From contig NZ_CP089309.1 in assembly GCF_021228795.1 (NCBI RefSeq), positions 4,399,501 through 4,463,500 on the forward strand: a stretch of DNA of 64,000 nucleotides, given 5' to 3'. This document shows, in pieces, positions 13,462 to 64,000 of this stretch. The stretch is from Thiocapsa bogorovii (GTDB lineage: Bacteria > Pseudomonadota > Gammaproteobacteria > Chromatiales > Chromatiaceae). Both the position numbers and the translations under genes were made by a program. Below the pieces are notes generated by a model. That model saw only the letters and a list, made by a program, of their open reading frames with translations, did no database searches and had not been told where the DNA came from. Within the stretch, counting starts at the first letter, position 1. Each line of letters opens with the position of its first letter.

Positions 13462-13579
13462 GGCATGCTCCGAGGGCTGGGTCGATCGTGCCAGTGTGCT
13501 CCCGGGGGTGGCTCAAAACGTGAGCCTGCGCGCTAAGTTGTTGATGCAAAATTCGTGTGCGCCTGCTACAGAATGCCGG

Positions 13580-14358
13580 TTCAGTGTCGCACGGTTGGGG
13601 CGACGCCAGTCGAGCTCGCCGGTGCGCGGACCGCTGCGCACTCGATCGGGCAATTGGATATGGTGGTCGACCAGATCACGCAGGACCCCATTGATCGTCC
13701 CGCACCGTTGGAACTGCCGAAACACCGTCTCGATCACGCCCCGAACCTGCGCGTCCGGATCCTTGAGCACCTCTCCGGAAGGCGCGCGGACATAGCCGCG
13801 CGGCAGCAGCGTGTGCAGCTCTCCGCGGCGTGCCTTCGCGCGCTTGCCCTCGAGCATGCGCTGCTTGAGGATGTGCAGCTCCGCTTCCGACATCGTCCCC
13901 TTCAGCCCCAACAGCAACCGGTCGTTGTCGATCTGCGGATCATAGACCCCGTCGGCATCCCCGATCAGGGTCGCAAACAGTCCGCAGACCGCGAGCAATT
14001 GATACCAGTCCCGCGAGCTGCGCGCCAAACGCGAGATCTCGATGCCGAGGAAGATGCCGACATGATCCAGACCGACTTCGGCCATCAGCCGCTGAAAGCC
14101 GGGCCGACCCTCGGCGCTCGCCCCGGAACGGCCCAGATCCTCACCGATCAGGAGGATCTGCGAGGGCGACCAGCCCAGCTCCACCGCCCGATCCACCAAG
14201 GCGTACTGCAGCCGGGTCGACTCCTGGTGGCGCTCCACTTGCTGCAGCGTCGATTGGCGCACGTAGACCACGGCCTGGCGCTGCAGATGCGAGGACTGGA
14301 TCCTGCCGTACGTCGGGTTGATCGGCGCACGGTACACGGGCGAGAGGACGGTGCTCAT
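13580..14358 (-). pseudogene. Large serine recombinase, C-terminally truncated
   Basis: The N-terminal resolvase domain is intact: VVYVRQST with the nucleophilic Ser, then GEDLGRSGASAEGRPGFQRL and EISRLARSSRDWYQLL. A partial recombinase domain follows (residues about 170-255). The frame is cut by the IS1595-family element at 13579, losing the zinc ribbon and coiled coil expected in a protein of 500-700 residues. Starts at ATG 14358. Confidence 0.85.
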
Positions 14359-16974: not shown

Positions 16975-17535
16975 GCGAAAAGAGTCACATTTCAAGACCT
17001 GGGTGACCTGGCAATGGTTGCCCGCTGTGAGAGAGCCGCGCAAGCGGGAAGCTCTCCCGAGTAGGGCTTAGTCAGCCGCTCGGAAATGTACTGATCGAAA
17101 GGCATGAGCCGGACGGCCAGAGACATGAGGGACACGAGGTGAAGGGTGATGCCCTGAATCCGACACATAGCCCCGAGAAGAAATGATTTTGGGTGAGAGC
17201 CGATCCTGTCAGGTCGGGCGCAGGCCATGCGGGAGGTGCGTGATCGACGAGCACCAACCGTCCCCCCGGGGTCTCAGACGGCATCGAGTGTCACAACGGC
17301 GGCAATGAACCAGGCGAGCGACGATCAAGGGCTCTTGGAGAAACGCGCAATGCAGTACCCGAGTATGAGCGCCAATGTCACAAGAGGTGCTCAAATGGCC
17401 GCGTCGCGAGTGATGAGGACCGGTATGCCGCAACGGTTAGCGATGAAGAGGGGTAATGTCCTCCGAGCGAAGGTCCTCACGGTGGGTTGAGCGTCGAGGC
17501 GGAAACATTGTCACGATACAAGGCGTGAACAAACA

Positions 17536-18861
17536 GTGAGCACAGAGTCGAGACGTCTAGGCGAGAAGGCGCGCAATGATCCACGGCTGGTCTTCAGCAG
17601 TCTTCATCATCATGTCTGCGATGTGGATCACCTGCGCGCCTGCTTCGAAGCACTGCCCGCGGATCGGGCAGTGGGGATTGATGGCATCACGAAGGAGCGC
17701 TACGGAGCGAACCTGGAGGAGAATCTCGAGGCGCTCTCGAGCAGGCTGAGGAACATGGGCTACCGGCCGCAACCGAAGCGGCGCACCTATATTCCCAAGC
17801 CGGGAAGCGAGAAAGGGCGACCGCTGGCCATCAGCTGCTTTGAAGACAAGCTGGTCGAGCTGGCGATCAAACGGGTTCTGGAACCCATCTACGAGGTGCA
17901 GTTCGAGGACCGCAGCTACGGCTATCGGCCGGGGCGCAGTCAACACCGATGCCTGGACGATCTCGGGCGGACCATCCAGCAGCGCCGTATCAACTATATT
18001 GTCGAGGCTGATATTCGCAGCTTCTTCAACGAAGTCGACCATGGGTGGATGCTGAAATTTCTCCGCCATCGGATCGGCGACCCGCGGATCGTCCGCCTCA
18101 TCGCCCGCCTGCTCAAGGGCGGTATCCTGGAGGACGGGCTGGTACAGGCCAGCGAGGAGGGGACGCCGCAAGGCTCGATCCTCTCGCCGCTGTTGTCGAA
18201 CATTTATCTGCACTACGTGCTGGACCTCTGGTTCAGCTATCGGGTACGACCGCAAAGTCGCGGCGAGGCGTACTACTTCCGTTTCGCCGATGATTTTGTC
18301 GCCGGCTTTCAGAACCGGCAGGACGCGGAACACTTCCAAACGGCCCTCGGCGAGCGGCTGAGAACATTCCGGCTGCGGCTGGCTGAAGAGAAGACCCGGT
18401 GTCTGGCGTTCGGGCGCTTTGCCCGAGACAACGCGCGGGCACGGGGCGAGAAGCCCGAGGAGTTTACCTTCCTCGGCTTCACCCACTATTGCGGCAAAAG
18501 CAAGAAGGGCCACTTCAAGGTCAAGCGCCGCACCAGCCGCAAGAAGTTCGGGGCCAGCCTGCGGGCGTTCAATGATTGGGCGCGACGCGTCAGGCACAAG
18601 CAGACCAAGGGAGAGATGCTCATCCGCGCCAAGGCGCGGATACAGGGACACCTCAACTACTATGCCATCACGGACAATGCACGCAGTTGCTCGCGCTACG
18701 TCTATCACGCCACGCGCATTCTGCGCCGGTGGCTCAACCGCAAGAGCCAGCGTAAGGCGTACAACTGGGACCAGTACAACGACGTCCTGCGTGAGGTCGC
18801 CTGGCCCCGCGTGCAGATCCGCACCGACCTGAATCCCTTTCGAAGAGCGGAGGCTTGCTGA
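17536..18861 (+). CDS. ltrA: Group II intron reverse transcriptase/maturase (intron 1)
   Basis: Product of 441 residues from a GTG start. RT blocks are in order: GIDGITKERY, KGRPLAISCFEDKLVELA, SYGYRPGRSQHRC, EADIRSFFNEVDH (first catalytic Asp), EEGTPQGSILSPLLSNIYLH, and FRFADDFVAGF (FADD box). The thumb/X domain contains GHLNYYAITDN. No HNH endonuclease is seen, so integration would use other DNA ends. The frame is uninterrupted, so it may be active and could act on ORF-less relatives in trans. Confidence 0.92.
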   Translation: MSTESRRLGEKARNDPRLVFSSLHHHVCDVDHLRACFEALPADRAVGIDGITKERYGANLEENLEALSSRLRNMGYRPQPKRRTYIPKPGSEKGRPLAISCFEDKLVELAIKRVLEPIYEVQFEDRSYGYRPGRSQHRCLDDLGRTIQQRRINYIVEADIRSFFNEVDHGWMLKFLRHRIGDPRIVRLIARLLKGGILEDGLVQASEEGTPQGSILSPLLSNIYLHYVLDLWFSYRVRPQSRGEAYYFRFADDFVAGFQNRQDAEHFQTALGERLRTFRLRLAEEKTRCLAFGRFARDNARARGEKPEEFTFLGFTHYCGKSKKGHFKVKRRTSRKKFGASLRAFNDWARRVRHKQTKGEMLIRAKARIQGHLNYYAITDNARSCSRYVYHATRILRRWLNRKSQRKAYNWDQYNDVLREVAWPRVQIRTDLNPFRRAEAC

Positions 18862-18874
18862 ATGACCGACCGAG

Positions 18875-18907
18875 GAGCCGGATGTGGGAAAGCCGCTTGT
18901 CCGGTTC
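18875..18907 (+). ncRNA. Group II intron domain V (intron 1)
   Basis: A 33-nt hairpin with the AGC catalytic triad on the 5' strand and CCGGTTC closing the 3' strand, 14 bp after the RT stop codon. Confidence 0.8.
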
Positions 18908-19087
18908 CGAGAGGGGCCGGGTCGCAACTTGGACCACGGGCGAGATCATGTGGCACCGCCGGGAAACCAGGCGGCAAACAGAGAACACAAACGTCGCCCT
19001 ACCGTTCGGGGAGTGCCCGGCCTACTCAAAACCCCGAGCTCCCTTATTCTCGCCAAGATGACGACTCAAGCAACGAGGGCCAAAGAC

Positions 19088-19725: not shown

Positions 19726-20112
19726 AAGACTGTGCAGAAAACGTGGTCTGTGATGCGCCAGGACAAACTGGCAAGAGGTAGTCGATGAAAGTTCGATACG
19801 AAATAGAAAGGGCGATTCGTTTCGGCCCCGAGTCATGGGGGATATGCCGTGAGGCGTAGCTCCAAGCGTTGACAGGGGAAACCGGCAGGCCAGCCATTGA
19901 GCCGCGAAATCACGAACTCCGGGATGCCGACGTCGTACAGACAGGCGGAAGGCGACACGGCTGCGGGCGCTAATCGCAAGTGCGCAGACGATCCCGCGCG
20001 GTCGGAGACCCTGAGCATGCCGGGAAGCCTTTTGCACAGGACCTGGGAGGTCTCATCCGTACCCGGCGCCGACCGGGTGGGGCGGGGAAGGCAAAGCCGT
20101 CATCCCGCCATC

Positions 20113-21572
20113 GACGCGGATGAGAAGTCGGATACGCTCGTAGTACCGAAGAAGCTGCCGAACAAGGGGGACAACCCCGCGGAGGTGGTGGAGGGAAGGG
20201 GCGTAGCCGAGGGGAACGCTGGAGAGGCGCCCACGCACCGGACACAGAGCCGGGATCGCGTGTCGATGGGTCTCGAAGGCGTACGCGAAGCGGCCCGCCG
20301 GGATCGGCGGGCACAGTTCACGGCACTGCTGCACCACATCACACCGACGCTACTGGAGGAGAGCTTCCATGCGCTTCGCCGGGACGCGGCGGCGGGGGTG
20401 GACGGCGTGACCTGGACCAGCTACGAGGGGGCCTCGCCAGTCGGCTGGAGGACTTGCACCGGCGGATTCATACCGGTGCCTATCGCGCCACGCCGTCGCG
20501 GCGAGTCTACATCCCCAAGGCGGATGGTCGTTTGCGTCCGCTGGGGATTGCCGCCTTGGAAGATAAGATCGTGCAGCAGGCGGTGGTGACCGTCCTCAAC
20601 GCGATTTATGAAACGGATTTCTTGGGGTTCTCCTATGGCTTTCGACCTGGCAGGAGCCAACACCAAGCGCTGGACGCGCTCTATGTCGCCATCGACACCA
20701 GGCCGGTCAACTGGGTCTTGGACGCAGACATCCGTTCGTTCTTCGACATGCTCGATCACGGGTGGATGATGCGATTCCTGGAACACCGGATCGCGGATCG
20801 ACGGATCCTTCGACTGATCCGCAACTGGCTGAAAGCAGGCGTCATCGACGAACAAGGACGGCGGGTTCCCGGCGAACGGGGTACGCCGCAAGGTGCGGTG
20901 ATTTCGCCGTTACTGGCGAATATCTACTTGCACTACGTTCACGACCTTTGGGCGCACCAATGGCGCCGGCGGCACGCGCGCGGCCAGGTCATCCTGGTCC
21001 GCTATGCCGATGATAGCGTGTATGGATTTCAGGCTGAGGTGGAGGCGCGCGGCTTCCTTGCGGACCTGCGCGAACGCCTTCAGCGCTTCGGTCTGGAACT
21101 GCATCCGGAGAAGACGCGGCTGATCGAGTTTGGCCGCTACGCTGCTTCCAACCGGAAACGCCAGGGATTGGGAAAGCCGGAGACGTTTGATTTTCTCGGC
21201 TTTACGCACATCTGCGGCAAGACCCGGAAAGGCTGATTCGCGATCGTCAGACGCACCGTCAAAAAGCGGATGCGGGCGACGCTGGCGGCGATCCGGGGGC
21301 GACTGAGGGAGCAGCGCCACGCGCCAATTCCGGAGCAAGGAAAATGGCTGGGCCGCGTCCTGCGGGGCTACTTCAACTACCACGCGGTGCCGGGCAATCT
21401 CAAACGCCTGGACGGCTTCCGAGCGGAAGTCACCCGCGCCTGGCGTCAGTCTCTCATGCGGCGTAGTCACAAGCACCGGATGCCCTGGTCGAGGTGTAAC
21501 AGGCTGGCTCGAAAATATCTACCGTCGGTGAAACTGGCTCACCCCTACCCGACGGTTCGCTTCGCGTCATGA
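20113..21572 (+). pseudogene. ltrA: Group II intron reverse transcriptase, frameshifted and interrupted
   Basis: The N-terminal frame (VEGRGVAEGNAG...FTALLHHITPTLL...AAAGVDGVTW) breaks near 20428 in a run of five Gs. The next frame continues YIPKADGRLRPLGI, SYGFRPGRSQHQ, DADIRSFFDMLDHGWM, ERGTPQGAVISPLLANIYLH and VRYADDSVYGF. A TGA at 21234 then interrupts the thumb domain, which resumes at once (RGYFNYHAVPG) to 21572. Start is uncertain. Two lesions make it non-functional. Confidence 0.85.
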
Positions 21573-21582
21573 CCCGAGGCAG

Positions 21583-21615
21583 GAGCCGTATGCGGTAATT
21601 CCGCACGTACGGATC
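21583..21615 (+). ncRNA. Group II intron domain V (intron 2)
   Basis: Hairpin with AGC triad, arms GAGCCGTATGCGG and CCGCACGTACGG, loop TAATT. Closest to the canonical domain V of all the introns here. Confidence 0.85.
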
Positions 21616-21867
21616 TGTGCGGGGGGCGGGGGGTAACCTCCGTCCCTACCGCGACCCCCGGTTTTCGCATTGGGCGCCGCGACCTCGGCCGGAATGGTTC
21701 CTGTCGCGTTCTGTCGCGCGGGCACCGGCAACTGACCGGCCTTATACCAGTTCCAGGCCGTACGTTAGGAGATGCCTTGTTGCTTGGCCCAAGCGCTGAG
21801 TATCATGCGTCTTAAATCAGCATGACCTGCCACGCTCTTCGATGCTTTCTTTCAACAGTTGGAACCC

Positions 21868-25457: not shown

Positions 25458-25581
25458 GACCTGACCTTTGTGGCTCCGGGCTTTGTGGTTCTGAAAAATC
25501 AAAAATGTGGTCTGTTCCTGGTTTCCCATTCAACGTGAGGCTGACCCTGGGGCCTGCGAATGGCAAGAGTCGAGACTTGAC

Positions 25582-25680
25582 CCCGATGAGCCCCCGCCCC
25601 CTTTTATCCCGAGGTCGGAGCGGGCCCTGCTCGACCATTTGCCCTGGCCGGGATAAAAATCGCGGAAAAGGGCTCTAACC
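25582..25680. repeat. ~100-bp repeat with TTTTATCCCG inverted ends, copy 1
   Basis: Recurs at 32979-33091. A potential stem-loop is bounded by TTTTATCCCG and CGGGATAAAA. The last part (GGGCTCT.ACCCCTTTAATCTTG) is split here by an IS4-type element: the remainder lies at 27038-27058. Confidence 0.8.
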
Positions 25681-27037
25681 CTGAGGTATCCCCACGAATT
25701 CATCCCCCACAAACCCCGTCGGCGAGCAGGGCGTCATGGTCGCTCGCAACCCATCGGTCCGGTGGCGCGATGGCCGTGAGCACCTCATCGAGCACATCGC
25801 GGGTACTGTCGAGGATGAGCAGCAGACGCGCGAGGAAGATCCGCGAGTAGACGCGACGCTTGCCGTTGCCCGGATGCAGCCGGCGGTGGATGCCGGCGCG
25901 CTCGGCCGCGGTACCGATCAGCCAGAGCAGGAACGCGGCCAGCGAGGCGATCAGCACCAACACCGTAAAGCGTTCTGTGCCGCGCGAGCGGCTACGCTCC
26001 AAGCCCTCTCCGAAGTGTAAGTTCTTCATGTCGCGAAAGCTTTGCTCGATTTGCATGCGCTGGGCGTAGAGGCGCACCAGCCGCTTGGCCGGCCACTCGG
26101 CGAAGCGGGTCGAGGCGACCAGCAGCCAGGGCTCTTTGGCGCTGCGGGCGTTTTGCGTGCTGGCCTTGGAGCGCGCTCGCCGCCCGAAGGTGGTCTTGCC
26201 GCGACGGCCCTTGGGCGGTCGACGCACCAAGGCGAAGACGGCGCGCAGCGGATTGCTGCGCACCCACTCGCCCTCGCCGAGCGCCGTCGGGGTGGCCGTC
26301 GCACGCGCGAAAAGCGTCTTGCAGCTGCTCCAGCGCGACTTCAGCCGCACGAAGTCGCGCCCGCGCACCCGTCCGACCCAGCGCCAGCCCAGGGCTTGCA
26401 CCTCGCGATAGAAGGGAACTTTGAAGCCCGCGTCGGCGATGATGATCGGCGCCACCCCGGCGGCATCAGGGTGCTCAGGTGGCGCAGAAAGCGCGCGTGC
26501 ACCGCCGCGTTGTTGAGTTTCTTCTGTGGGTGCACCTCCTCGTAGAGGGTCAGACTGCGTCCGCCCACCGGCAGCGATGCGCGCAACAAGTGCAGCGACT
26601 GGTCGGCCTTCAGATCCGACCAGTCGATCAGGATCAGCGGTTCGCGTACGCGCGCCAGCGTCACGCGGCACAAGGCCCGATAGATCGATTTGGCCTCCCG
26701 GCGCAGATGCCGATTGCCGAGCAGGCGATCGGCGCGCTTGATCTTGTGGCGCAGCCCGACGGCGCCTCCGAAGCGCCGCCCCACATCGGTCAGCGACAAC
26801 GCCGGCCCGCTCACGCAGGCCGCCACCGCGGCGAAAAGTGTCGCCAAACGTGTGCGGTGAATCGCCTGCAGCAACGGATCGAGGCAGCGGTGTAAGATGG
26901 TTCCTGCATGCACGAGGGGTCTCCTGGCGGGTTTCGTCGCTTTCCAGGGACAACGACCTCTCGTGCATGTTCAATCCTGTGCAAAGAATGCGATTTAACG
27001 CACTGAAAAAGTCTACATTATTTTGGGGATACCTCAG
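25681..27037 (-). mobile_element. IS4-family insertion sequence
   Basis: 1357 bp with perfect 14-bp terminal inverted repeats CTGAGGTATCCCCA (25681-25694) and its complement (27024-27037). Flanked by a 9-bp target duplication GCTCTAACC (25672-25680 and 27038-27046). The insertion is recent by these marks, but its transposase frame is shifted. Confidence 0.93.
25700..26913 (-). pseudogene. IS4-family transposase, single frameshift
   Basis: The N-terminal frame (from ATG 26913) reads SLTDVGRRFGGAVGLRHKIKR and LILIDWSDLKAD (first Asp). Near 26460 the continuation APIIIADAGFKVPFYREV lies in the next frame. The second frame has LVASTRFAEWPAKRL and the YREK signature YAQRMQIEQSFRDMK. One missing base would restore the frame; programmed frameshifting is possible but no classic slippery site is obvious. 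Confidence 0.85.
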
Positions 27038-30409: not shown

Positions 30410-30966
30410 AGGGCCATGGGCGATGCGCCGGTGAGCCAGGACACGGGGTTGGCGGACAGCCTCCAGACCTGATTGGCCGCCGGCACATCTCCCGCCGACA
30501 TTCGTCAGGGAGCAACGCTTGTGACCGAGACGCCTCCGCCATCGAGCCAACACGGGGTTGGACGGTGCCGACATGGCACCGAGCCAGCGATCTGTGAATC
30601 CGCGGCCCGGCGGGGGCGGGTCGGGGGCGCCTGGATCTATTGGGATCCGCGCCCCCGACCCGCCCCCGCCTCCGTGGTCCACTTGGACCTTGGTGGGGCA
30701 CCGACGATTTTCTGGGGCTCCTATGAGCCAGGGGCCGGGTGTCTACTCCCAACGGAGCAGCCCCACCGCCTTGATCGAGAAGGGTGACTGGCGCGGATCG
30801 GAGTGAATCCGCGACCGTTCAACGAGAACCGCGGGCGCGTTGGCGGTAGCAATGTCGCACTCCCCGACCGACATGAGCGTGCATAGGTGCGAGAAAAAAG
30901 GTCGTGCCATTGATCGGGGTCAGCTAAATGGTGACCCCGGCCTTCGTCGCTGCGCATGGCAAAAGT
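30410..30966. other. Non-coding stretch with a long GC hairpin
   Basis: Holds the presumed IS110 right end and a 22-bp perfect inverted repeat (separate entry). No convincing gene. The last bases carry GGCAAAAGTCAAGACCTG, the 5' flank of intron 3. Confidence 0.5.
30609..30670. repeat. 22-bp perfect GC-rich inverted repeat
   Basis: Arms 30609-30630 and 30649-30670 are exact reverse complements made of GGCGGGGGCGGG-type sequence. The 18-bp spacer itself contains GGATC/GATCC. No T run follows, so it is not a standard terminator. Confidence 0.85.
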
Positions 30967-31509
30967 CAAGACCTGGGTGACCTGGCAATGGTTGCCCGCT
31001 GTGAGAGAGCCGCGCAAGCGGGAAGCTCTCCCGAGTAGGGCTTAGTCAGCCGCTCGGAAATGTACTGATCGAAAGGCATGAGCCGGACGGCCAGAGACAT
31101 GAGGGACACGAGGTGAAGGGTGATGCCCTGAATCCGACACATAGCCCCGAGAAGAAATGATTTTGGGTGAGAGCCGATCCTGTCAGGTCGGGCGCAGGCC
31201 ATGCGGGAGGTGCGTGATCGACGAGCACCAACCGTCCCCCCGGGGTCTCAGACGGCATCGAGTGTCACAACGGCGGCAATGAACCAGGCGAGCGACGATC
31301 AAGGGCTCTTGGAGAAACGCGCAATGCAGTACCCGAGTATGAGCGCCAATGTCACAAGAGGTGCTCAAATGGCCGCGTCGCGAGTGATGAGGACCGGTAT
31401 GCCGCAACGGTTAGCGATGAAGAGGGGTAATGTCCTCCGAGCGAAGGTCCTCACGGTGGGTTGAGCGTCGAGGCGGAAACATTGTCACGATACAAGGCGT
31501 GAACAAACA

Positions 31510-32817
31510 GTGAGCACAGAGTCGAGACGTCTAGGCGAGAAGGCGCGCAATGATCCACGGCTGGTCTTCAGCAGTCTTCATCATCATGTCTGCGATGTGG
31601 ATCACCTGCGCGCCTGCTTCGAAGCACTGCCCGCGGATCGGGCAGTGGGGATTGATGGCATCACGAAGGAGCGCTACGGAGCGAACCTGGAGGAGAATCT
31701 CGAGGCGCTCTCGAGCAGGCTGAGGAACATGGGCTACCGGCCGCAACCGAAGCGGCGCACCTATATTCCCAAGCCGGGAAGCGAGAAAGGGCGACCGCTG
31801 GCCATCAGCTGCTTTGAAGACAAGCTGGTCGAGCTGGCGATCAAACGGGTTCTGGAACCCATCTACGAGGTGCAGTTCGAGGACCGCAGCTACGGCTATC
31901 GGCCGGGGCGCAGTCAACACCGATGCCTGGACGATCTCGGGCGGACCATCCAGCAGCGCCGTATCAACTATATTGTCGAGGCTGATATTCGCAGCTTCTT
32001 CGACACGATTCCCCATGCCAAGCTCATGGCCGTGGTGGCTGAACGCATTGTCGATGGTCCCGTGTTGGGACTCATCCGGCAATGGCTGAAAGCCCCGGTC
32101 ATTGAGGAAGACGAGCAAGGCAAGCGCCGTCCCACGGGCGGAAAAGGGAATCGACGGGGAACCCCACAGGGCGGCGTCGCCTCACCCCTGTTGGCAAACC
32201 TGTATCTGCATCTCCTGGACCGGATCTGGGTGCGGCACGACTTGGAGCGTCGACTCGGCGCACGGCTGGTGCGCTATGCCGACGATGCGGTGATCCTCTG
32301 TCGCCACGGCACCAAGAAGCCCATGGCCGTCTTTACGGCGGTCCTCGAGAAGTTGGACCTCACGCTCAACGTGCAGAAAACCCATGTGGTCGATGCGCGC
32401 GCCGACGGGTTCGACTTCCTGGGGTTTCGGATTGCCTGGCGAACGAGCCGTCGCAGCGGCAAGGGTTACCCGCACGTGGAGCCATCGAAACGGGCCGAGC
32501 AACGCATCAAGGACCGGGTCACGGAACTGACCGCGCGTCGCCGAACCCCGGTGGCGCTCAGGGACATGATCGGCGAGGTCAACCACGCCCTCAGGGGCTG
32601 GTCAGGCTACTTCCACTACCGCAACTGCTCAACGGTTCTTGGTCGGGTAAAAACGCATGCCGAGGAGCGGATGCGTACGCAACTGCGTCGCCGCCACAAG
32701 CTCCAGAGCCGGGCGCAAGGATATCTGCGCTTTCCCAATGCGCATGTCTACGACCACCTCGGATTGTTCAAGATCCCAACCACCGCAGGCTGGACATCGG
32801 CGCATGCCTCGGCGTGA
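31510..32817 (+). CDS. Chimeric group II intron reverse transcriptase
   Basis: Product of 435 residues. Residues 1-164 equal those of the intron 1 RT, up to EADIRSFF. After this the sequence switches to another lineage: DTIPHAKLMAVVAERIVDG, then NRRGTPQGGVASPLLANLYLH, the YADD box in LVRYADDAVILC, and LRGWSGYFHYRN in the X domain. The joint is exactly at the conserved RT-3 block, and the YADD active site is kept. Whether the hybrid is functional is unknown; its RNA ends also come from two lineages. Confidence 0.88.
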   Translation: MSTESRRLGEKARNDPRLVFSSLHHHVCDVDHLRACFEALPADRAVGIDGITKERYGANLEENLEALSSRLRNMGYRPQPKRRTYIPKPGSEKGRPLAISCFEDKLVELAIKRVLEPIYEVQFEDRSYGYRPGRSQHRCLDDLGRTIQQRRINYIVEADIRSFFDTIPHAKLMAVVAERIVDGPVLGLIRQWLKAPVIEEDEQGKRRPTGGKGNRRGTPQGGVASPLLANLYLHLLDRIWVRHDLERRLGARLVRYADDAVILCRHGTKKPMAVFTAVLEKLDLTLNVQKTHVVDARADGFDFLGFRIAWRTSRRSGKGYPHVEPSKRAEQRIKDRVTELTARRRTPVALRDMIGEVNHALRGWSGYFHYRNCSTVLGRVKTHAEERMRTQLRRRHKLQSRAQGYLRFPNAHVYDHLGLFKIPTTAGWTSAHASA

Positions 32818-32827
32818 AGCACATCGG

Positions 32828-32861
32828 AAAGCCGTGTACGGGAGAACCGTATGCACGGATT
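32828..32861 (+). ncRNA. Group II intron domain V (intron 3)
   Basis: Hairpin AAGCCGTGTACGGG with CCGTATGCACGGATT just after the RT stop, followed by GATGAGGGAGG as in CUACUCUAC-ending introns. Confidence 0.7.
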
Positions 32862-32978
32862 GATGAGGGAGGGCTGGTATCCTGTGTCTATGACTCGGCT
32901 ATTGAGGCACCGCCAAACGAAAGGGGCGGCAACAGATAGGCCGGGTCTACGGGCGCAGGATGCCTGCTCTCTACTCTA

Positions 32979-33091
32979 CCCGATGAGCCCCCGTCCCCTT
33001 TTATCCCGAGGTCGGAGCGGGCCCTGCTCGACCATTTGCACTGGCCGGGATAAAAATCGCGGAAAAGGGCTCTGACCCCTTTAATCTTGAT
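32979..33091. repeat. ~110-bp repeat, copy 2
   Basis: Uninterrupted version of 25582-25680 plus 27047-27058, with few differences. It follows the intron 3 end directly. Confidence 0.8.
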
Positions 33092-51331: not shown

Positions 51332-51392
51332 TCGTTTGGGTCGTCGTTCAGAGACCCGCCGCTGGAGCCAGTAGCGCGGGAAACCGGGGACG

Positions 51393-52207
51393 GTGCGGCC
51401 TGGCAAGGCCGCGTGTTCTAGCGGGTGGAACTCCCGCCCGGGTAATCGTGCGCCGCGAGCCCGGTATCGAGCCTTGCGGCGCGACTGGTCACAGGCGCGT
51501 CGATGCGTAGGCACGACAGCAGGCGAGGTGCAAAGGTAACGGGTGATGCCGACCCTGAAGGTGTGAGCCCCGAAAATTTTGGTTGGTGAGTGCCGACGGC
51601 TTCGTCCCGCCGGTAGGCAACAATCCGTGTCGCGCTCTGGCGAGCGGCACGGATACTCCCCGGGGTCAGAGACCGTATCGAGCCTGACATTGAGACTCCG
51701 CGGTAACCAGGGAGATCCGCGCATCGGTCCGCAGGAAGCGGGCACCCGCGAACAAGTGTCAAAAGCGAGGACGCGGGCGGGGATGCGTGGAAGTCGGAGC
51801 CACCCATAGGAGCTGTGACGCCCGGTCATGCGGTTCGAGCAAAGGGGTGGCGGCCCAGGACAATGCGCGGGTAAAGCACGGCCCTCCACCGAGAGGATTC
51901 TGTCCGTGACAACCATGCTCGCGCGTTTCACGCCGTCGGCGTGCCCGCCCTTGTGGCGGTGCGCGGAACGCTCGGCGCGGCGGCGGGAGCCGCACGCGCG
52001 GAGTCGACAGGGCGCTGGACTCGCTCCCCTGTTCCACGGCGGAAGACTCGGGCCGGGAGCCGGATGGTGTAACACTCCAAGTCCGGTTCTGCGAGGAGTC
52101 GGGCGCCGAATCGTCGCATGGCGGAGATATCGCGGCACCGCCGGGAAACCAGGCGGCAAACAGATCAAGCAAACATCTGCCTAAACGACGGCAAGGCCCC
52201 GGCTTAC
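51393..52207 (+). mobile_element. ORF-less group II intron, copy 1
   Basis: About 815 bp. Starts GTGCGGCCTGGCAAGGCCGCG and has a domain V hairpin (52053-52086: GAGCCGGATGGTG, AACAC, then CCAAGTCCGGTTC). After domain V it shares CACCGCCGGGAAACCAGGCGG and the CCGGCTTAC end with intron 1. No RT frame is present; long minus-strand ORFs across it are chance frames. The 5' flank is GAAACCGGGGACG. The exact 3' end may be 5-6 bases further on. Confidence 0.85.
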
Positions 52208-52818
52208 TCTCCTACCACGGTTATCGCGATCGGTGACCGATGGGCCTCGCTGATGAATCCGGCCAAAACGCGTTCAGCGCGGTTCCCGAGATCGTCGCGT
52301 TGACATGGATCCCGCGGACCGTCTAGCCGGCGTAAGAAGACGACTGCAAGTCGTCGATCCGGGGATGTCGGGGCTTCGCGAGGATCGCGATCGGCGAGCG
52401 CTCGGCCTCGCTGGCTTGCGAGCCAGCTGCTTGGGGCCGGCGAATCGTCGCGTCGTGTTCGTGCCTTCGGCCATCGTGGCACTTGATTGTCGGGCTGCGG
52501 GATGTAGGTGTGGGATGATTTCAGTCGCCCCCTGGCACCGACGCAGCGTTGCGCCGGGCACGCGAACGGGGAGCAGTTGCGCGACTGGATTCCGTCGACG
52601 GATGAACCGTGTCCGATTCGGGGATAATTTACCTCGTTGTCCCAGGTCCCCGGTCGTGGGGCGCTGGACTGGTCCTGCCCAAGCCTAGCCTGCAGGAAAC
52701 GCTGGAATGGCTGCGATGCGAGGTCTGCCCCGTCCTGGATCGGCGCTGCATCGACACCGTAGACTACGAGGCGTAGGCTACGGTAAAGCGACCCAACTGC
52801 CAGCTTCCGGGATGAAAC
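52208..52818. other. Non-coding stretch between intron copy 1 and the TA cassette
   Basis: 611 bp, repeated identically at 61653-62263. Contains two copies of an ATCGCGATCGG[TC]GA-type repeat (52215-52250 and 52385-52420). A possible gene tail (SLQETLEWLRCEVCPVLDRR, about 52690-52777) is not recognised. It may contain the TA promoter. Confidence 0.5.
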
Positions 52819-53157
52819 ATGCACGCCACGAATGTCAGAAATCTGAAAAAGAACCCCTCTCTCGCGCTGCGCCAGGCAGAAGAGTCGCCTGTGCTGGTGC
52901 TGAAAGGCGATGAACCCAACGCGCTGATCGTGCACCTCGACAAGTCGGTTGCCGAGGGGGAGCAGTCGGTGAGACCAGCCTTGGCTGCGGCACTCTTCAA
53001 AGACGGTACACTGTCTTTGGGCGGGGCCGTCCGGCTGAGTGGTATGGTCACGCAGGCGTTTCTTCAGTACCTCGGTGAATTGGGTATCGACGTTGTCCGC
53101 TTCGACGAAACCACTAGGCACGAAGCCGCGGACCTGGATCGATGGCTCGCGTCGTAA
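52819..53157 (+). CDS. Antitoxin, Phd-like N terminus joined to UPF0175 domain
   Basis: Product of 112 residues. Residues 1-45 (NVRNLKKNPSLALRQAEESPVLVLKGDEPNALIVHLD) look like a Phd/YefM DNA-binding part. Residues 50-112 (AALFKDGTLSLGGAVRLSGMV, then FLQYLGELGIDVVRFD) are a UPF0175 helix-turn-helix unit. It overlaps the DUF3368 toxin by 16 bp, so the two are coupled. Confidence 0.8.
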   Translation: MHATNVRNLKKNPSLALRQAEESPVLVLKGDEPNALIVHLDKSVAEGEQSVRPALAAALFKDGTLSLGGAVRLSGMVTQAFLQYLGELGIDVVRFDETTRHEAADLDRWLAS

Positions 53158-53621
53158 TCGCCGACGCTGGGCCACTCATCGCATTTGCTGGAATCGACGG
53201 ACTTTTTGTCCTGCGGGTGTTGTTTTCACGGATCCGGATCACCGCGTCGGTGCGGAACGAATGCTTGGTGACCGAGGGATTGGACGCTCAACGGATCGCT
53301 GCATCCATCCGGGACGGCTGGCTGATTGTCGAGGCCCATGCAAGGGAATCGGCTCCCTTGACCCCGAGCCTGGGGCTCGGTGAAAGCGATTCGATCCGAC
53401 TGGCCCTGGAGGACCGGGCGCGTTCACTGCTGATCGTAGACGACCGGCTGGCGAGGCGCTATGCGCTGCGCAAGGGGCTCAACATCGTCGGATCGGTTCG
53501 GCTGCTCGATATGGCGGAACGGCGAGGGCTGATCCAGAGTGCGGAGAGGTGCATTCGGCAGATGTCGAATTTCGGCTACCGAGTCTCCGTTGACCTGTTG
53601 GAGCAGATCCGATCCAGTTAG
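53142..53621 (+). CDS. DUF3368 PIN-like toxin
   Basis: Product of 159 residues. VVIADAGPLIAFAGIDGLF supplies the first Asp, GLGESDSIRLALEDRA the Glu/Ser/Asp block, and LLIVDDRLARRYALRKGLNIVGSVRLL the last acids. Predicted RNase toxin. Identical copy at 62587-63066. Confidence 0.87.
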   Translation: MARVVIADAGPLIAFAGIDGLFVLRVLFSRIRITASVRNECLVTEGLDAQRIAASIRDGWLIVEAHARESAPLTPSLGLGESDSIRLALEDRARSLLIVDDRLARRYALRKGLNIVGSVRLLDMAERRGLIQSAERCIRQMSNFGYRVSVDLLEQIRSS

Positions 53622-54506
53622 GAGTGGCGTGGGATGTTCCAGGAGGAAACCGGGGACGGTGCGGCCTGGCAAGGCCGCGTGTTCTAGCGGGTGGAACTCC
53701 CGCCCGGGTAATCGTGCGCCGCGAGCCCGGTATCGAGCCTTGCGGCGCGACTGGTCACAGGCGCGTCGATGCGTAGGCACGACAGCAGGCGAGGTGCAAA
53801 GGTAACGGGTGATGCCGACCCTGAAGGTGTGAGCCCCGAAAATTTTGGTTGGTGAGTGCCGACGGCTTCGTCCCGCCGGTAGGCAACAATCCGTGTCGCG
53901 CTCTGGCGAGCGGCACGGATACTCCCCGGGGTCAGAGACCGTATCGAGCCTGACATTGAGACTCCGCGGTAACCAGGGAGATCCGCGCATCGGTCCGCAG
54001 GAAGCGGGCACCCGCGAACAAGTGTCAAAAGCGAGGACGCGGGCGGGGATGCGTGGAAGTCGGAGCCACCCATAGGAGCTGTGACGCCCGGTCATGCGGG
54101 TCGAGCAAAGGGGTGGCGGCCCAGGACAATGCGCGGGTAAAGCACGGCCCTCCACCGAGAGGATTCTGTCCGTGACAACCATGCTCGCGCGTTTCACGCC
54201 GTCGGCGTGCCCGCCCTTGTGGCGGTGCGCGGAACGCTCGGCGCGGCGGCGGGAGCCGCACGCGCGGAGTCGACAGGGCGCTGGACTCGCTCCCTGTTCC
54301 ACGGCGGAAGACTCGGGCCGGGAGCCGGATGGTGTAACACTCCAAGTCCGGTTCTGCGAGGAGTCGGGCGCCGAATCGTCGCATGGCGGAGATATCGCGG
54401 CACCGCCGGGAAACCAGGCGGCAAATGAGCACGGCCACCTTCCCTGATGGTTATTTCCCCTTAAATCGTCATCTTTCATGAGGGCGAGCGGTGGGCCTCC
54501 CTCGGG

Positions 54507-61116: not shown

Positions 61117-61146
61117 CCCTAGATCCGGCAGTTGACCGCTTCGCGA

Positions 61147-61652
61147 GGTAACCGGGGAGATCCGCGCATCGGTCCGCAGGAAGCGGGCACCCGCGAACAA
61201 GTGTCAAAAGCGAGGACGCGGGCGGGGATGCGTGGAAGTCGGAGCCACCCATAGGAGCTGTGACGCCCGGTCATGCGGTTCGAGCAAAGGGGTGGCGGCC
61301 CAGGACAATGCGCGGGTAAAGCACGGCCCTCCACCGAGAGGATTCTGTCCGTGACAACCATGCTCGCGCGTTTCACGCCGTCGGCGTGCCCGCCCTTGTG
61401 GCGGTGCGCGGAACGCTCGGCGCGGCGGCGGGAGCCGCACGCGCGGAGTCGACAGGGCGCTGGACTCGCTCCCCTGTTCCACGGCGGAAGACTCGGGCCG
61501 GGAGCCGGATGGTGTAACACTCCAAGTCCGGTTCTGCGAGGAGTCGGGCGCCGAATCGTCGCATGGCGGAGATATCGCGGCACCGCCGGGAAACCAGGCG
61601 GCAAACAGATCAAGCAAACATCTGCCTAAACGACGGCAAGGCCCCGGCTTAC
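61147..61652 (+). mobile_element. ORF-less group II intron, copy 3 (5' truncated)
   Basis: Identical to copy 1 from its position 51702 to the end. The first 309 bp are missing, so it cannot splice. The start of homology is also the start of the duplicated 2.7-kb unit. Confidence 0.85.
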
Positions 61653-62263
61653 TCTCCTACCACGGTTATCGCGATCGGTGACCGATGGGCCTCGCTGATG
61701 AATCCGGCCAAAACGCGTTCAGCGCGGTTCCCGAGATCGTCGCGTTGACATGGATCCCGCGGACCGTCTAGCCGGCGTAAGAAGACGACTGCAAGTCGTC
61801 GATCCGGGGATGTCGGGGCTTCGCGAGGATCGCGATCGGCGAGCGCTCGGCCTCGCTGGCTTGCGAGCCAGCTGCTTGGGGCCGGCGAATCGTCGCGTCG
61901 TGTTCGTGCCTTCGGCCATCGTGGCACTTGATTGTCGGGCTGCGGGATGTAGGTGTGGGATGATTTCAGTCGCCCCCTGGCACCGACGCAGCGTTGCGCC
62001 GGGCACGCGAACGGGGAGCAGTTGCGCGACTGGATTCCGTCGACGGATGAACCGTGTCCGATTCGGGGATAATTTACCTCGTTGTCCCAGGTCCCCGGTC
62101 GTGGGGCGCTGGACTGGTCCTGCCCAAGCCTAGCCTGCAGGAAACGCTGGAATGGCTGCGATGCGAGGTCTGCCCCGTCCTGGATCGGCGCTGCATCGAC
62201 ACCGTAGACTACGAGGCGTAGGCTACGGTAAAGCGACCCAACTGCCAGCTTCCGGGATGAAAC
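61653..62263. other. Non-coding stretch, duplicate of 52208-52818
   Basis: Same as the first copy at every position I compared; no gene recognised. Confidence 0.6.
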
Positions 62264-62602
62264 ATGCACGCCACGAATGTCAGAAATCTGAAAAAGAACC
62301 CCTCTCTCGCGCTGCGCCAGGCAGAAGAGTCGCCTGTGCTGGTGCTGAAAGGCGATGAACCCAACGCGCTGATCGTGCACCTCGACAAGTCGGTTGCCGA
62401 GGGGGAGCAGTCGGTGAGACCAGCCTTGGCTGCGGCACTCTTCAAAGACGGTACACTGTCTTTGGGCGGGGCCGTCCGGCTGAGTGGTATGGTCACGCAG
62501 GCGTTTCTTCAGTACCTCGGTGAATTGGGTATCGACGTTGTCCGCTTCGACGAAACCACTAGGCACGAAGCCGCGGACCTGGATCGATGGCTCGCGTCGT
62601 AA
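62264..62602 (+). CDS. Phd/UPF0175-type antitoxin, second copy
   Basis: Same 112-residue product as at 52819-53157. Overlaps the toxin by 16 bp. Two identical antitoxin genes mean that loss of one cassette would not release the toxin of the other. Confidence 0.8.
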   Translation: MHATNVRNLKKNPSLALRQAEESPVLVLKGDEPNALIVHLDKSVAEGEQSVRPALAAALFKDGTLSLGGAVRLSGMVTQAFLQYLGELGIDVVRFDETTRHEAADLDRWLAS

Positions 62603-63066
62603 TCGCCGACGCTGGGCCACTCATCGCATTTGCTGGAATCGACGGACTTTTTGTCCTGCGGGTGTTGTTTTCACGGATCCGGATCACCGCGTCGGTGCGG
62701 AACGAATGCTTGGTGACCGAGGGATTGGACGCTCAACGGATCGCTGCATCCATCCGGGACGGCTGGCTGATTGTCGAGGCCCATGCAAGGGAATCGGCTC
62801 CCTTGACCCCGAGCCTGGGGCTCGGTGAAAGCGATTCGATCCGACTGGCCCTGGAGGACCGGGCGCGTTCACTGCTGATCGTAGACGACCGGCTGGCGAG
62901 GCGCTATGCGCTGCGCAAGGGGCTCAACATCGTCGGATCGGTTCGGCTGCTCGATATGGCGGAACGGCGAGGGCTGATCCAGAGTGCGGAGAGGTGCATT
63001 CGGCAGATGTCGAATTTCGGCTACCGAGTCTCCGTTGACCTGTTGGAGCAGATCCGATCCAGTTAG
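62587..63066 (+). CDS. DUF3368 PIN-like toxin, second copy
   Basis: Same 159-residue product as at 53142-53621. Confidence 0.87.
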   Translation: MARVVIADAGPLIAFAGIDGLFVLRVLFSRIRITASVRNECLVTEGLDAQRIAASIRDGWLIVEAHARESAPLTPSLGLGESDSIRLALEDRARSLLIVDDRLARRYALRKGLNIVGSVRLLDMAERRGLIQSAERCIRQMSNFGYRVSVDLLEQIRSS

Positions 63067-63103
63067 GAGTGGCGTGGGATGTTCCAGGAGGAAACCGGGG
63101 ACG

Positions 63104-63916
63104 GTGCGGCCTGGCAAGGCCGCGTGTTCTAGCGGGTGGAACTCCCGCCCGGGTAATCGTGCGCCGCGAGCCCGGTATCGAGCCTTGCGGCGCGACTGGT
63201 CACAGGCGCGTCGATGCGTAGGCACGACAGCAGGCGAGGTGCAAAGGTAACGGGTGATGCCGACCCTGAAGGTGTGAGCCCCGAAAATTTTGGTTGGTGA
63301 GTGCCGACGGCTTCGTCCCGCCGGTAGGCAACAATCCGTGTCGCGCTCTGGCGAGCGGCACGGATACTCCCGGGTCAGAGACCGTATCGAGCCTGACATT
63401 GAGACTCCGCGGTAACCAGGGAGATCCGCGCATCGGTCCGCAGGAAGCGGGCACCCGCGAACAAGTGTCAAAAGCGAGGACGCGGGCGGGGATGCGTGGA
63501 AGTCGGAGCCACCCATAGGAGCTGTGACGCCCGGTCATGCGGGTCGAGCAAAGGGGTGGCGGCCCAGGACAATGCGCGGGTAAAGCACGGCCCTCCACCG
63601 AGAGGATTCTGTCCGTGACAACCATGCTCGCGCGTTTCACGCCGTCGGCGTGCCCGCCCTTGTGGCGGTGCGCGGAACGCTCGGCGCGGCGGCGGGAGCC
63701 GCACGCGCGGAGTCGACAGGGCGCTGGACTCGCTCCCCTGTTCCACGGCGGAAGACTCGGGCCGGGAGCCGGATGGTGTAACACTCCACGTCCGGTTCTG
63801 CGAGGAGTCGGGCGCCGAATCGTCGCATGGCGGAGATATCGCGGCACCGCCGGGAAACCAGGCGGCAAACAGATCAAGCGAACATCTGCCTAAACGACGG
63901 CAAGGCCCCGGCTTAC
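63104..63916 (+). mobile_element. ORF-less group II intron, copy 4
   Basis: About 813 bp, complete, matching copy 2 before its interruption; two bases are missing near 63370 (ACTCCCGGGTC versus ACTCCCCGGGGTC). The 5' flank is GAAACCGGGGACG. After the intron end lies AACCGGGGCAGTACCACGCTCATCGCG, another variant of the target repeat. The last 84 bp of the window hold no gene. Confidence 0.85.
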
Positions 63917-64000
63917 TCTCCTGGAGAACCGGGGCAGTACCACGCTCATCGCGATCGGCGACTGAGGGGGAGTCCATCGGGGGGGCCTTCGAGTGTGTCG

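Follow-up and report, generated by a model that had tools for sequence, protein, structure and literature searches.

The stretch of DNA considered here, referred to as the window throughout, comprises 64,000 nucleotides of Thiocapsa bogorovii (RefSeq assembly GCF_021228795.1, contig NZ_CP089309.1, positions 4,399,501 to 4,463,500 of the forward strand) and carries a group II intron, intron 3, whose 5′ and 3′ halves come from two different intron lineages, denoted P5 and P3. The change from one lineage to the other falls within the RT-3 motif of the reverse transcriptase (RT) encoded by the intron, and another group II intron of the window, intron 1, is an intact member of the lineage to which the 5′ half belongs. 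The features that bear on the hybrid are as follows, in window coordinates:

30977..32979, forward strand: hybrid group II intron (intron 3), 2003 bp, with 5′ GTGACC, 3′ ...CTACTCTAC and Rfam matches
30966..32001, forward strand: part from lineage P5, consisting of 11 bp of target and the 5′ half of the intron (5′ ribozyme domains, start of domain IV, N-terminal half of the RT); equal to 16992-18027 and 89% identical to the intact intron of genome G151
32002..32979, forward strand: part from lineage P3, consisting of the C-terminal half of the RT, domains V and VI (DV-DVI) and the 3′ terminus; 98.8% identical to G110, 93% to G020 and 89% to G153; the intact P3 introns L037 and L038 have a different 5′ half
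31510..32817, forward strand: hybrid RT/maturase open reading frame (ORF) of 435 amino acids (aa), with a GTG start at 31510, the stop at 32815-32817, and TIGR04416, RVT_1 and GIIM matches
31998..32001, forward strand: crossover ambiguity zone CTTC, in which the TT at 31999-32000 forms the first two bases of the second Phe codon of FFD and is the junction site of the element described below
31184..31189, forward strand: CAGGTC, complementary to GACCTG of the 5′ exon, seen at 17210 in intron 1 and placed here by equal offset; the probable exon-binding site 1 (EBS1)
16992..19036, forward strand: intron 1 with 11 bp of target, an intact P5 member with an approximate 3′ end, whose 5′ half is identical to that of intron 3

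Hybrid structure of intron 3 and its parental lineages

In a blastn comparison introns 1 and 3 are exactly identical over 1036 bp (16992-18027 and 30966-32001), with 0 bp of extension to the left, the first 11 bp of the repeat (TCAAGACCTGG) being their common 5′ exon target and GTGACC at 30977 marking the start of intron 3, as it does in intron 1 and its relatives. Past 32001 the match extends by just 3 bases, with one mismatch, and no further match is listed; at the protein level both introns carry on as RT downstream of this point. The original prediction had described this identity and its abrupt end, and had placed the break inside the EADIRSFF block of RT-3, which presumably holds the first catalytic Asp, with the frame left open; all of this was found again, the seam lying at EADIRSFF|D within a frame that is open from 31510 to 32817.

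The consensus for the 5′ start of a group II intron is GUGYG, against which introns 1 and 3 both read GTGACC. Within intron 3, the D1-D4 core family RF02005 scores 55.5 bits at 31022-31255 (gathering score 49), and the DV-DVI family RF00029 scores 39.3 bits at 32827-32979 (E 1.1e-5), which is just below its gathering score of 40 and ends exactly at 32979, where the intron terminates in ...CTACTCTAC as in the P3 lineage. The hybrid RT (P0001), in which RVT_1 and GIIM domains are present, reaches 331.8 bits with TIGR04416, and the RT of intron 1 (P0002) 320.9 bits, against a cut-off of 300. An AlphaFold2 model of the hybrid RT, built on an alignment of 32 rows (the two window proteins and the flank halves described below), is too weak for judging function, because its mean predicted local distance difference test score (pLDDT) is 69.1 and its predicted template-modelling score (pTM) 0.46.

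Both parents are represented among 210 genomes of the order (the genome of the window included) that were searched with the DNA of intron 3, two candidates being scored per genome, and 52 of which match it. Lineage P5 is represented by an intact intron in G151, which matches intron 1 at 89% over 2046 nt, and by a relative in G181, at 74% over 1395 nt; intron 3 matches the G151 intron at 89% over 1052 nt, with the match ending 9 nt beyond the seam. Lineage P3 is found as intact introns in G020 and G153 (93% and 89% identity to the 3′ half of intron 3, respectively), in which the 5′ ribozyme and the N-terminal half of the RT are unrelated to those of intron 3, and in G110 (taken to be Thiocapsa marina 5811), of the same genus as the genome of the window, where the P3 3′ half is 98.8% identical to intron 3 over 985 nt starting at the seam. 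P3 also occurs in ORF-less copies (e.g. in G117), and these have kept the 5′ end and the 3′ end of P3 together. With the G110 match starting at the seam and the G151 match ending close to it, the hybrid is not a matter of chance. From the comparison of the intact members it follows that P5 supplied intron 3 with its 5′ ribozyme and the N-terminal half of its RT, and P3 with the C-terminal half of the RT and DV-DVI. It had been claimed beforehand that the C-terminal half, domain V and the terminus belong to another class than the 5′ half, that RNA and protein are both hybrids, and that intron lineages had undergone exchange at an RT motif; these claims hold up, with intact members of P3 having another 5′ half, the two lineages each being attested independently, and the seam lying at RT-3 between them. 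Outside the genome of the window, no listed match among the 210 genomes spans substantial parts of both halves of intron 3 in one piece.

Several side observations concern the same lineages. The ORF-less P3-type introns of G117 (L050) measure about 750-770 nt and, as they lack an ORF, the P3 lineage may be mobilised in trans. A relic in G111 (L048 2032-2473; G111:C1:3684031-3684472) combines 326 nt of the P5 RT N-terminal half with about the last 111 nt of P3, and at G053:C182:37127-37728 (L031) a P5-like match (45 nt) and a P3-like match (121 nt) lie 437 bp apart, which may point to a further hybrid relic or simply reflect codon conservation. Members of P5 and P3 both adjoin targets like CAAGACCTG (on the P3 side at L037 and L038, not at L039), and targets of a related kind are found beside several further introns of P5 and P3. 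Where intron 3 is inserted (30860-30976), CAAGACCTG lies in a sequence resembling a repetitive extragenic palindrome (REP), a similar, intron-free sequence being found at 25556-25590.

Since introns 1 and 3 have 1036 identical bases 14 kb apart, an artefact of assembly or of the reads has to be considered. The genome is, however, a single contig of 5.65 Mb (99.99% complete), the overlap at the join is just 4 nt, and no P3 5′ half was found in the genome beyond 78 nt at 74%. Misassembly over the repeat could exchange the sequences to the left of the two introns, yet it could not produce the seam, because the P3 3′ half was found at full length only here, and otherwise as a 193-nt piece and shorter ones. 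An artefact is thus highly improbable.

At the seam itself the codon register is kept, the switch from intron-1-type to P3 sequence occurring in frame at the codon FF|D, with EADIRSFF contributed by P5 and FDTIPH by P3. The parents have 4 nt (CTTC) in common at this point, with 48% identity within 30 nt on either side and no run longer than 4 nt, and their longest in-register similar stretch (29 nt at 79%) lies away from it. The position of the seam is that of the TT of the FF|D codon (31999-32000, inside the 4-nt zone), and five equivalent crossover points fit among about 1308 positions of the ORF or 2003 of the intron, i.e. 0.25-0.38% by chance, as reckoned post hoc. Such an in-register join with just 4 nt in common is what site-specific recombination predicts. 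Recombination of an ordinary kind, homologous or illegitimate, between two introns resident in the genome accommodates it poorly, as RecA-type exchange needs far more homology than a 4-nt run and 48% identity; homologous recombination, checked by local identity around the seam, is accordingly disfavoured. What speaks for ordinary recombination is a feature of the flanks:

25582..25681, forward strand: intron-free second copy, 97% identical, of the sequence that adjoins intron 3 on the right (32979-33078), preceded by a similar CAAGACCTG-type target

The right flank of intron 3 resembles this copy at 97% over 100 bp, and its left target agrees with the target there at only 20 of 25 positions, so that the two sides perhaps come from different source sites (Fisher p about 0.008, post hoc). 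The recombinase model set out below fits this contrast too, and the flanks of intron 3 and of the 25582 site do not discriminate between the models. Ordinary recombination is considered very unlikely overall.

Serine recombinase elements at the RT-3 codon

The P3 intron of T. marina is split at the FF|D codon by a 2.7-kb large-serine-recombinase element. Its 5′ half stops at AAATACTT|GGATCG on contig C38 and its 3′ half starts at GAGTCCTT|CGACAC on contig C52, and the sequences beyond these two breaks correspond to the two ends of an element that is complete on contig C59 (2742 bp), where it interrupts a different group II RT, likewise at the FF|D codon. The element (L077) encodes a recombinase of 740 aa (P0003) with Resolvase, Recombinase, zinc-ribbon and helix-turn-helix domains, together with a DUF5372 ORF, and is, judged by its domains, a large serine recombinase element. 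T. marina as a second hybrid with the same breakpoint was rejected, the element being inserted there and the halves lying on two contig ends.

Relatives of this recombinase were collected from GTDB genomes, of which the best 80 of 93 were kept, and from plasmids (452 records at E up to 1e-40, from which 15 regions were taken); with L081 and L084 this gave 97 loci, at which an RT half was counted at at least 40 bits. Halves of group II RTs are found on both sides of the recombinase at 41 loci, on one side at 26 and on neither at 30, many of the last being distant recombinases or having short flanks. Some loci are not independent, namely L141 and L142 (one genome), L179 and L245 (identical recombinase rows) and the near-copies L247 and L249. 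Among the 57 left and 51 right halves, a junction could be placed in 51 and 44 cases, respectively, placement requiring an alignment within 6 residues of the motif, and in all of them (51/51 left, 44/44 right) the second aromatic codon begins with TT. On the right this constancy is partly automatic, because Phe codons begin with TT; the telling part of the count is on the left, because in 48 of the 51 junctions TTG is followed by sequence of the element.

A quick tree was made of 95 recombinases, 14 of 109 rows having been omitted as shorter than 450 aa. In it the 58 loci with a group II RT half all fall into one clade of 66, supported by a value of 100 in the Shimodaira–Hasegawa-like approximate likelihood-ratio test (SH-aLRT), the other eight members being without an RT flank. 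Elements of this clade occur in group II RTs of many phyla, and specificity for the RT-3 site is, as far as the tree of these sequences tells, a matter of clade. A second, separate clade of recombinases, 42-49% identical to P0003 (L086, L087, L088 and L089), is located within the RPLGIP codons of group II RTs or next to them, the evidence being two-sided for L086, one-sided for L087 and L088, and less clean for L089. At L085/L099 (G111:C1:5502968-5509078) an element of the RT-3 recombinase family is itself seemingly interrupted by a group II intron.

Mixing of lineages between the two flanks of an element was measured as the score lost when the C half has to be matched to the best intact relative of the N half, and vice versa, with a limit of 0.24, the highest smaller loss among 22 intact RTs. 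Seven of the 41 two-sided loci exceed it (L150, L149, L253, L156, L180, L146 and L154); the scores of intron 3 are 0.75 and 0.89. The sole mixed-flank locus from a complete record, L253, is on the megaplasmid of Mycetohabitans rhizoxinica B12, and strain HKI 454 of the same species has two introns, X and Y, both intact at the same locus. As far as the FF|D codon of X the two strains are 99.8% identical (2597 bp), and from the FF|D codon of Y onwards they are 99.9% identical (2728 bp). B12 lacks the 2681 bp that separate these codons in HKI 454 and has a 2700-bp element in their place, giving the order X-left, element, Y-right, with the breaks at TT. As X and Y are intact in HKI 454, its state is taken to be the older one. 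Because the deletion begins and ends at one and the same codon in two distinct RT genes, a hybrid RT gene has been set up in B12, and excision of the element would leave a seamless X/Y hybrid of the same kind as intron 3.

Proposed origin of intron 3

These observations lead to a model, regarded as probable, in which a large serine recombinase that attaches at the RT-3 motif of group II RTs generated intron 3 as a hybrid at the level of the DNA. According to this model, an element of about 2.7 kb, with a DUF5372-like ORF, a small ORF and a recombinase of about 740 aa, would insert at the TT of FF|D in a P3 intron and also in an intron-1-type (P5) copy; alternatively to the double insertion, it could bridge the P3 and P5 introns, as in Mycetohabitans. 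Once the two introns had crossed over and the element had been excised at the TT core, the left half from P5 would be connected to the right half from P3, scarless and in frame. This route is the most likely one because of the position of the seam, the clade specificity of the recombinase, the strain pair, and the fact that, among the matches found, the one closest to the 3′ half of intron 3 is the T. marina intron split by an element. Direct support exists for the hybrid, both parents, the element family, its target codon, the mixed-lineage flanks and one pair with and without a bridging element. Intron 3 as the scarless product of a recombinase is an indirect conclusion from the sequences, because the element was not found in the genome of the window.

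A number of points weigh against this reading. The attP-end pattern has 0 matches in the window and 0 in the whole genome with up to 3 mismatches, and no close recombinase was found in the genome, the three matches being just 42-53% identical to P0003 (5 of 19 candidates scored). The reciprocal product, P3-left joined to P5-right, was not found in this genome, in which the halves were searched apart, nor in the 210 genomes of the order at two scored candidates each. The C38-C52 connection in T. marina runs through the element by deduction, the halves of the intron lying at two contig ends. The 30 loci that lack an RT flank include close recombinases with long flanks (L136, L151 and L174). Six of the seven mixed-flank loci are on draft contigs or contigs of metagenome-assembled genomes, where misassembly through the element is possible, and the calls at L150, L154 and L180 rest on short stretches. 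No X/Y hybrid free of the element was seen, and a second element-free hybrid at the FF|D codon was found in none of the 22 intact RTs, a small set. The degenerate P5/P3 hybrid of G111, which is truncated at its 5′ side, has its seam away from the attachment codon; the recombinase does not explain it, and it is not counted as support. Apart from these points, the window itself holds a remnant of a serine recombinase gene:

13513..14358, reverse strand: truncated serine recombinase gene, situated about 2.6 kb left of intron 1 and 53-56% identical to P0003 in its N-terminal part

No flanking RT was found at this gene, which is at most a candidate for the RT-3 type.

The hybrid of G111, with its seam at a different place, is a point in favour of template switching during target-primed reverse transcription, in which the RT would copy P3 RNA from its 3′ end, switch at CUUC to an intron-1-type RNA and finish the 5′ half. 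Consistent with that, several P3 matches begin within the intron like 5′-truncated copies (some of these starts being contig ends), and members of P5 and P3 are found at the same CAAGACCTG-type target. Template switching leaves unexplained, however, why the seam of intron 3 falls at the junction codon of a known element, and why the register is exact with 4 nt of homology when the longest stretch over which the parents are similar in register (29 nt, 79%) lies elsewhere; it is held to be unlikely, and the recombinase origin is preferred.

A wider reading can be offered tentatively, as a possibility that would go well beyond intron 3: the widespread serine recombinase family in the RT catalytic motif might act as a natural shuffler that, by insertion, bridging and scarless excision, lets introns of different classes exchange halves of their RT and ribozyme at one constant codon, with some of the hybrids (such as intron 3) being functional and mobile, and with a second clade acting at the RPLGIP codon block.

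Relation to known systems and other features of the window

Intron 3 resembles the mobile bacterial group II introns (TIGR04416; RF02005, RF00029) in its D1-D4 match, its near-threshold DV-DVI match, its RT and maturase domains, its GTGAC start and its ...CTAC end, all as read from the DNA, and differs from them in its composition, the 5′ half being of one lineage and the 3′ half of another, in RNA as well as protein. The element has the domains of the large serine recombinases or serine integrases (Pfam Resolvase, Recombinase, Zn_ribbon_recom) and, like these, is inserted at one conserved coding site with junctions fitting a 2-bp core; it differs in being small (2.7 kb) and in having as its target the RT-3 codon of group II intron RTs. 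A survey of large serine recombinases describes ones that are specific for one gene, and its main text has no mention of the terms group II intron, reverse transcriptase or ltrA (PMC10083194).

The loss in B12 of 2681 bp between two target sites is of a kind with the deletions that occur between two sites of a mobile element, and is distinguished from these by its ends lying in the same codon of two RT genes. Among the open-access papers listed, judged by title and the start of the abstract, no report on serine recombinases in group II RT genes was found. The pieces are of known kinds, and their combination, with the hybrid that it explains, appears new as far as the literature search reaches. 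A recombinase that uses an RT active-site motif as its attachment site provides a concrete route for swapping halves between lineages, which could explain RT trees that are in conflict at RT-3, and a clade of recombinases specific for a single block of catalytic codons, in genes that are highly divergent, bears on the question of how recombinases recognise their targets.

Further group II intron sequence is present elsewhere in the window. Intron 2 (19788-21655), with one in-frame TGA in its RT, has the top Rfam score of the window, and the regions 51379-54425 and 61144-63922 contain four near-identical repeats, three of which have RF02005 D1-D4 matches.
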